DNA of 64,000 nt from Verrucomicrobiota bacterium (lineage in GTDB: Bacteria > Verrucomicrobiota > Kiritimatiellia > RFP12 > UBA1067). Under the pieces are notes generated by a model. It ran no database searches. It was given only the letters and a program-made list of their open reading frames with translations, and had not been told where the DNA came from. The translations under genes were made by a program, and so were the position numbers. This document shows positions 3,539 through 4,510 of the stretch, piece by piece (the stretch's first letter is position 1; each line of letters starts with the position of its first letter). The stretch covers positions 1 through 64,000 of the forward strand of contig JAHFSX010000005.1 of assembly GCA_023269675.1 (NCBI GenBank), read 5' to 3'.

Positions 3539-3774
3539 GGACGACACGGAGGTCGTCCCTCCAGTGCGGTTATGGAGAGCTTGCCTCCATGTGGGCCGTG
3601 GGCGACATTGAGGTCGTACCAGTGCGGTTTATGGAGGGCCCGCCTCCTTGCGGGCCGCGGGCGACATTGAGGTCGTATCGGTGCGGTTTATGGAGGGCCC
3701 GCCTCCTTGCGGGACGTTGGCGACACGGAGGTCGTCCCGGTGCGGTTATGGAGGGCCCGCCTCCGTGCGGGCCG
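3539..3774 (+). repeat. Upstream REP array, four ~59-bp units
   Basis: Four tandem units begin at about 3542, 3603, 3662 and 3721. Each has a first hairpin (CGAC...GTCG, best seen as GGACGACACGGAGGTCGTCC at 3539-3558), a spacer containing GTGCGGTTATGGAG, and a second hairpin, perfect in unit 4 as GGCCCGCCTCCGTGCGGGCC at 3754-3773. Units 1-3 carry substitutions. The array directly precedes the broken RAYT gene, and a matching array follows it, so these are most simply its cognate REP sequences. Confidence 0.85.
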
Positions 3775-3785
3775 GAGAATTATGT

Positions 3786-4273
3786 ATGAAAGATGAGGGT
3801 CTGCATCAAAGACAACATCCTGTGCATCCTTCCGCTATTCAACGCGATAACCGATCCGTTTTGATCTTTTTCACGGTGTGCACACAGGGGCGCCGGCCCA
3901 TTCTCTGCTCGGCCGGGGCTCACGTTTTATTGCGGAAAGTCTGGGCAAGAGCGGATGCTTGGTTGGTTGGACGCTACATCTTAATGCCTGACACATGCAC
4001 TTTTTCTGTGCACCGGGGATCACGGATTATCCGGCGCTCGGCAAATGGGTCTCCTATTGGAAATCGTTGGCTGCCGCAGTTTGGCCGGATCAACCTGTTG
4101 GCAAAGTCTGGCAAAGAGATTTTTGGGACACGCAATTGAGGCGAGGGGATTCGTATGCGGAGAAATGGGAGTATGTTAGAATGAATCCCGTTCGGAAAGG
4201 GCTGGTACGGGAGAGCAACCAGTGGCCTTATCAAGGGGAAATGAATCAACTCGTGTGGCATGGCGAGGTATAG
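3786..4273 (+). pseudogene. REP-associated tyrosine transposase (RAYT, Y1/HUH family), frameshifted
   Basis: RAYTs are IS200-like Y1 transposases thought to nick and move REP sequences. The N-terminal part (3786 to about 3990) reads in one frame through HPVHPSAIQRDN, FFTVCTQGRRPIL and RYILMPD. The rest, ending at 4273, reads in another frame through HMHFFCAPG, VWQRDFWDTQLRRGDSYAEK and WEYVRMNPVRKGLV, which includes the expected catalytic Tyr helix. Adding one C near 3991 (GAC-AC to GAC-CAC) restores MPDHMHFFCAP and a complete 162-residue protein. The missing base therefore lies inside the catalytic HUH motif. GGAG eight bases before 3786 supports the start. Either a recently inactivated transposase or a sequencing or assembly error. 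Confidence 0.88.
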
Positions 4274-4277
4274 AGAT

Positions 4278-4510
4278 GGACGACACGGAGGTCGTCCCTC
4301 CAGTGCGGTTATGGAGGGCCCGCCTCCGTGCGGGCCGTGGGCGATATGGAGGTCGTCCCGGTGCGGTTATGGAGAGGCCGCCTCCATATGGGCCGTGGGC
4401 GATATGGAGGCCGTGCCGGTGCGGTTATGGCTGGCCCGCCTCCGTGCGGGCCGCGGGCGACATTGAGGTCGTCCCGGTGTGGTTATGGAGGGCCCGCATC
4501 CGTGTGGGCC
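4278..4510 (+). repeat. Downstream REP array, four ~58-bp units
   Basis: Four more units of the same repeat as 3539-3774, in the same orientation, begin at about 4281, 4342, 4400 and 4458. Unit 1 has both perfect hairpins (4278-4297 and 4317-4336). The array starts five bases after the RAYT stop and ends 13 bases before the next gene's start, so it forms the leader of that gene and could influence its transcription or mRNA stability. Confidence 0.85.

Follow-up and report, generated by a model that had tools for sequence, protein, structure and literature searches.

Two-hairpin repeats around a frameshifted RAYT in a Verrucomicrobiota genome are probably inverted REP dimers with one conserved loop

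Two short arrays of repeats in a 64,000-nt stretch of DNA (referred to here as the window) raise the question of why a repeat unit should be built as two hairpins with complementary loops. The earlier note on this DNA, in which such units and an apparent compensatory change were described, offered two answers: the loops might kiss in single-stranded DNA or RNA, or the second hairpin might be an inverted copy of the first, with loops conserved for transposase recognition while the stems diverged. The window contains eight two-hairpin units in two arrays of four (3539-3773 and 4278-4510), with the remnant of a REP-associated tyrosine transposase (RAYT) in between. Spacing between units is 58-61 nt, and each unit has two 20-nt hairpins (A and B) with 7-nt arms and a 6-nt loop. 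The features, with the units listed as REP pairs 1 to 8, are:

3539 to 3597, forward strand: REP pair 1; hairpin A is GGACGAC-ACGGAG-GTCGTCC, followed by the tail CTCCA
3578 to 3597, forward strand: hairpin B of REP pair 1; loop CTCCAT, stem decayed (one mismatch and three G-T)
3600 to 3656, forward strand: REP pair 2; A loop ATTGAG, B (3637-3656) loop CTCCTT
3659 to 3715, forward strand: REP pair 3; A loop ATTGAG, B (3696-3715) loop CTCCTT
3718 to 3773, forward strand: REP pair 4; A loop ACGGAG, B (3754-3773) GGCCCGC-CTCCGT-GCGGGCC
3786 to 4273, forward strand: RAYT remnant, frameshifted, between the two arrays
4278 to 4336, forward strand: REP pair 5, the best kept of the window pairs; A GGACGAC-ACGGAG-GTCGTCC with CTCCA, spacer, TGGAG, B GGCCCGC-CTCCGT-GCGGGCC
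4339 to 4394, forward strand: REP pair 6; A GGGCGAT-ATGGAG-GTCGTCC, B AGGCCGC-CTCCAT-ATGGGCC with three stem mismatches
4397 to 4452, forward strand: REP pair 7; A GGGCGAT-ATGGAG-GCCGTGC with two stem mismatches, B loop CTCCGT
4455 to 4510, forward strand: REP pair 8; A loop ATTGAG, B loop ATCCGT

The loops pair fully in units 3718 and 4278 (ACGGAG with CTCCGT) and in unit 4339 (ATGGAG with CTCCAT), in which both have changed. Unit 4397 pairs with one G-U, unit 3539 has one mismatch, units 3600 and 3659 have two mismatches each, and unit 4455 has two mismatches and one G-U. This largely agrees with the earlier reading of the letters, in which the units had been placed at 3721, 4281, 4342 and 4400, within a few bases of their starts. 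The units are real and the repeats multi-copy, but the pairing of loops in the window was no better than that obtained by permuting the B loops among the eight units, with three full matches against 1.6 expected (p = 0.19) and 39 matched loop cells against 38.75 (p = 0.57).

Across the genome, the unit follows the pattern of an A hairpin GGACGAC-ACGGAG-GTCGTCC, the tail CTCCA, a spacer, and a B hairpin such as GGTCGGG-CTCCGT-CCCGACC, and the spacer ends pair with each other (CTCCA with TGGAG). The design is identical when read from the opposite strand, and the unit is therefore a pair of REPs, one inverted relative to the other. The genome has more than 40 additional copies, and crude gene calls placed 36 of 40 between genes, in both convergent and tandem gaps. 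Nearly all pairs have GGAG as the foot when the tail (CTCC) is put 5′. Both arms carry CTAC at one locus, that of a RAYT relative (L192), which is GTAG on the opposite strand, and this suggests that GGAG stands in for the classical GTAG foot. Rfam searches of the eight unit loci returned sub-threshold matches only, none of them inside a unit, and a search of plasmid DNA gave no match. Pairing of the loop GGAG with the tail CTCC of the same REP was considered since the two motifs are complementary; it was dropped as a general rule, as other loops found within the same RAYT clade (TAAA, CAAG, AGAC, ACAAG and GTGGCA) mismatch the tail.

Many of the genome copies (L011-L043, with a 40-nt spacer) sit inside a longer imperfect inverted repeat, GGTTGCGCTGAAAAAGTCGG ... 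CGACTTTTTCAGCGCAACC, which in the alignment covers about 30 nt on each side of the unit and which the window units lack; given this longer repeat, the mobile element may extend over about 140 nt. Two other REP families were also observed. One is CTCC-tailed, with the loops AGGA and GGGA and a middle stem that is mismatched (GGCTCGCGAGGACGCTCGCC in one of the arms); it gave 18 hits in G012 and occurs at C8, C15, C20, C67 and C68 of G000, and it is abundant in the sister species. The other (G019, e.g., C124 and C182) has the form GGACGGTG, short loop, CACCGTCC CTCCA, is present in many copies and also adjoins a RAYT (L166).

In the RAYT remnant, the reading frames meet just before the HUH motif, with a first part from 3786 to about 3994 and a second part (3992-4273) whose translation carries HMH and YVRMNPV. 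The second part matched NCBIfam NF047646 (REP_Tyr_transpos) with 54.8 bits, below the curated whole-protein cut-off of 80, while the RAYT pieces had no matches in Pfam and matched only families of unknown function in PHROGs. Alignment with intact relatives places MPDHIHFFC and YVRxNPV at the expected positions, and the HUH and Y motifs were found in those relatives. CTCC-tailed hairpins of this design also flank the homologous RAYTs of other family genomes and of named Verrucomicrobiota/Kiritimatiellota/Lentisphaerae MAGs. Other matches to the window RAYT in its own genome were distant (42-44% identity), the genome's three Y1_Tnp loci had no adjoining CTCC-tailed hairpins, and a second RAYT of the window clade was not found in the assembly. 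With its RAYT broken and no other of the same clade in the assembly, the genome's repeats may be stranded, and current activity is doubtful because the RAYT is broken.

The units are most probably inverted REP dimers (REPINs) of a REPtron, and we assign a probability of roughly 0.85 to this explanation. Three features that mark a REPIN/REPtron in the broad sense were found: multi-copy, mostly extragenic hairpins, a unit that is an inverted pair with recurrent A and B arm types, and a cognate RAYT flanked by the same REPs, although in the window this RAYT has a frameshift and falls short of the family cut-off. The gene between the two arrays, frameshifted in this assembly, would be the transposase gene of the REPtron. 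Each REP, read on one strand, comprises a 5′-GGAG foot, a 7-bp stem and the 6-nt loop CTCCGT, and two facing REPs present this one conserved loop once as ACGGAG and once as CTCCGT, so that complementarity of the loops follows automatically. The stems of the two arms differ while each retains its own pairing, so that either arm could form its own hairpin in single-stranded DNA. By analogy, the RAYT would recognize and cleave such hairpins in single-stranded DNA and spread the pairs as non-autonomous elements; the copy number likewise suggests that inverted pairs have spread.

The loops themselves may serve as a recognition element, by analogy with TnpAREP, whose cleavage is sensitive to particular bases of the loop in two systems out of three, that of E. 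coli being the exception (PMC8266576). However, a weak point of the REPIN explanation is that loop conservation by transposase recognition finds no clear support in the RAYT tree, since close RAYT relatives differ in loop type. Loop type changed 9 times on the tree compared with 10.1 times with shuffled labels, with no clear association.

To examine the two arms and their loops, 92 pairs were gathered regardless of loop sequence from the source genome, family relatives and RAYT loci elsewhere, the genome sequence examined being the stretches around the matches. The arms differed in 91 of the 92 pairs, whereas loop and tail (CTCC[A/C]) were conserved. Within the ACGGAG class (n = 65 pairs), the arms agreed nearly everywhere; the exceptions were base pairs 3, 6 and 7 of the stem, identical in 9/65, 13/65 and 15/65 pairs, respectively. 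An alignment of 40 units had 98% of stem cells paired, with base pairs changed on both sides at three of seven positions in one stem and five of seven in the other, and covariation supports each of the two hairpin stems (helices 1 and 4). The survey thus upheld the proposal of an inverted second copy with conserved loops and diverged stems, while the purpose attached to it, transposase recognition, would be an interpretation of that pattern.

The whole unit may instead act as one long imperfect hairpin whose helix takes in the loops, and might then be a transcription terminator, an RNA stabiliser or a cruciform. This extended fold was lower in energy than the two-hairpin fold by an average of 2.9 kcal/mol as DNA and 5.7 kcal/mol as RNA, with many units almost equal, and a typical unit takes this form as its minimum-energy RNA fold; by crude gene calls, 14 of 40 copies lie between convergent genes. 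However, covariation occurs within each arm and not across the arms at stem pairs 3, 6 and 7. Homodimers made in silico, with B as the exact inverted A, favour the extended fold by 19 (DNA) and 28 (RNA) kcal/mol, yet all but one of the natural pairs have unlike arms, as if this fold were disfavoured. As the explanation of the units a long hairpin is unlikely, if still worth keeping in mind; such a fold could also be an additional role for these REPINs and not compete with that explanation. REP heterodimers have been reported before without an obvious explanation, and protection from hairpin-cleaving enzymes has been proposed (Di Nocera, PMC3733652). Alternatively, and alongside this protection idea, unlike stems may keep separate hairpins available to the transposase. 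The fold energies offer a numerical clue on Di Nocera's open question of unlike arms: unlike stems leave the two-hairpin and extended folds near-equal, and like arms would lock a REP dimer into one long hairpin.

The remaining proposal, kissing loops with a compensatory change as raised by the earlier note, is taken here to mean that both hairpins form together, that the loops pair with each other, as single-stranded DNA or as RNA, and that selection maintains the complementarity. Loops were fully complementary in 51 of 70 pairs with six-nt loops, and the two identical double changes in the ACGGAG class (L044 and L212 at 741) occurred in different genomes, both in line with pairing. However, loop changes were mostly one-sided: among the 65 pairs of this class, 48 had both loops unchanged, 12 had one changed, 2 had both changed identically and 3 had both changed differently, so that 12 of the 17 pairs with any loop change were one-sided and 2 identical on both sides. 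A search of 115 family genomes for AGAG in one arm recovered eight ACGGAG-class units, and the partner was also ACAGAG in only one of these. Furthermore, non-complementary loops are fixed in sister families, with AGGA facing GGGA in five of seven pairs of that family in G012 (a class in which permutation is uninformative, as one arm hardly varies), CAAG facing TAAA in G041, and ACGGAG facing ACGGCG in G071. In the 40-unit alignment, two of the six base pairs of a loop-loop helix had any double change, with four such cells. When B loops were permuted within genomes, full matches reached p = 0.04 and matched cells p = 0.07, and at loop position 3 both arms were changed in three pairs (hypergeometric p = 0.02, uncorrected for relatedness or for the six positions). 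There is thus a weak excess of double loop changes, which counts somewhat against the REPIN explanation too, but one-sided change is the rule. Covariation of the two loops beyond shared ancestry, on which the earlier note had let its proposal depend, was not found among the 92 pairs apart from this weak excess, and kissing loops are highly improbable.

The double change in the window is part of a tract that extends beyond the loop into the stem. In pair 6, A reads GAT-ATGGAG and inverted B reads CAT-ATGGAG; in A of pair 7 the letters are GAT-ATGGAG-GC, and their GC is that of arm B and not of arm A. The tract ATATGGAGGC, which spans stem positions 6-7 and 14-15 plus the loop, occurs both in inverted B of pair 6 and in A of pair 7, hairpins separated by only 2 nt. 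The changes in this tract weaken the stems, giving the mismatches listed for pair 6 B and pair 7 A, and the fully matched unit 4339 has decayed stems. Such a stem-damaging tract is explained by copying between inverted neighbours but not by selection for kissing hairpins. Apparent compensatory changes are a documented product of template switching (PMC8794818), and the co-changed tract, as read from the sequences of the two pairs, points to templated copying between inverted repeats. Under the REPIN explanation, the double loop change would have come from such copying, by template switching or conversion, and not from loop-loop selection.

It is similarly improbable that REPIN loops pair in single-stranded DNA so as to join the ends of the REPIN in a transposition complex, with the stem differences preventing the long hairpin; if true, the loop would serve for pairing in addition to recognition. 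That two unrelated hairpins are complementary by chance is refuted by the presence of the same architecture and loop in more than 40 genome copies and in four or more further genomes of the family.

Kissing-loop RNAs such as ColE1 RNAI/RNAII have two hairpins with complementary loops of 6-7 nt. The units share this two-hairpin layout with complementary loops but, unlike ColE1-type kissing loops, tolerate one-sided changes and fixed mismatches, their covariation being only a weak excess. With REPINs or REP dimers and their RAYTs (PMC3116915, PMC2817692, PMC3733652) they share a short hairpin with a tetranucleotide foot, inverted pairs, a spacer of 20-100 nt, many intergenic copies, a REP-flanked RAYT and arms with unlike stems (heterodimers). 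The foot in those systems is GTAG/GTGG or CGTC, whereas here it is GGAG (CTCC on the opposite strand), in a host that its RAYT relatives place in the Kiritimatiellota/Verrucomicrobiota group. TnpAREP subclass 2.4 (PMC6006769), a putative match among the closest systems, differs in its foot, GT[AG]G. We did not file the repeats in the GTAG-tagged REP superfamily, as its 5′ GTAG/GTGG foot is replaced by GGAG, or in the CGTC-tagged superfamily, which has a CGTC tag, a 4-5 nt loop and no associated transposase (PMC3733652), as opposed to the CTCC tail, 6-nt loop and associated RAYT found here. A search of the text of three REP/RAYT papers found no RAYT-linked GGAG foot, and literature searches turned up nothing relevant to REP kissing loops, to REPINs of Kiritimatiellota or to RAYTs of Verrucomicrobia beyond the Di Nocera survey. 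The question of the loops was settled here with a sample gathered regardless of loops. The kind of repeat is already known, as the REPIN; the GGAG foot appears new, if modestly so, and adds a RAYT-linked REP group to a region of the tree in which few REPs have been described.
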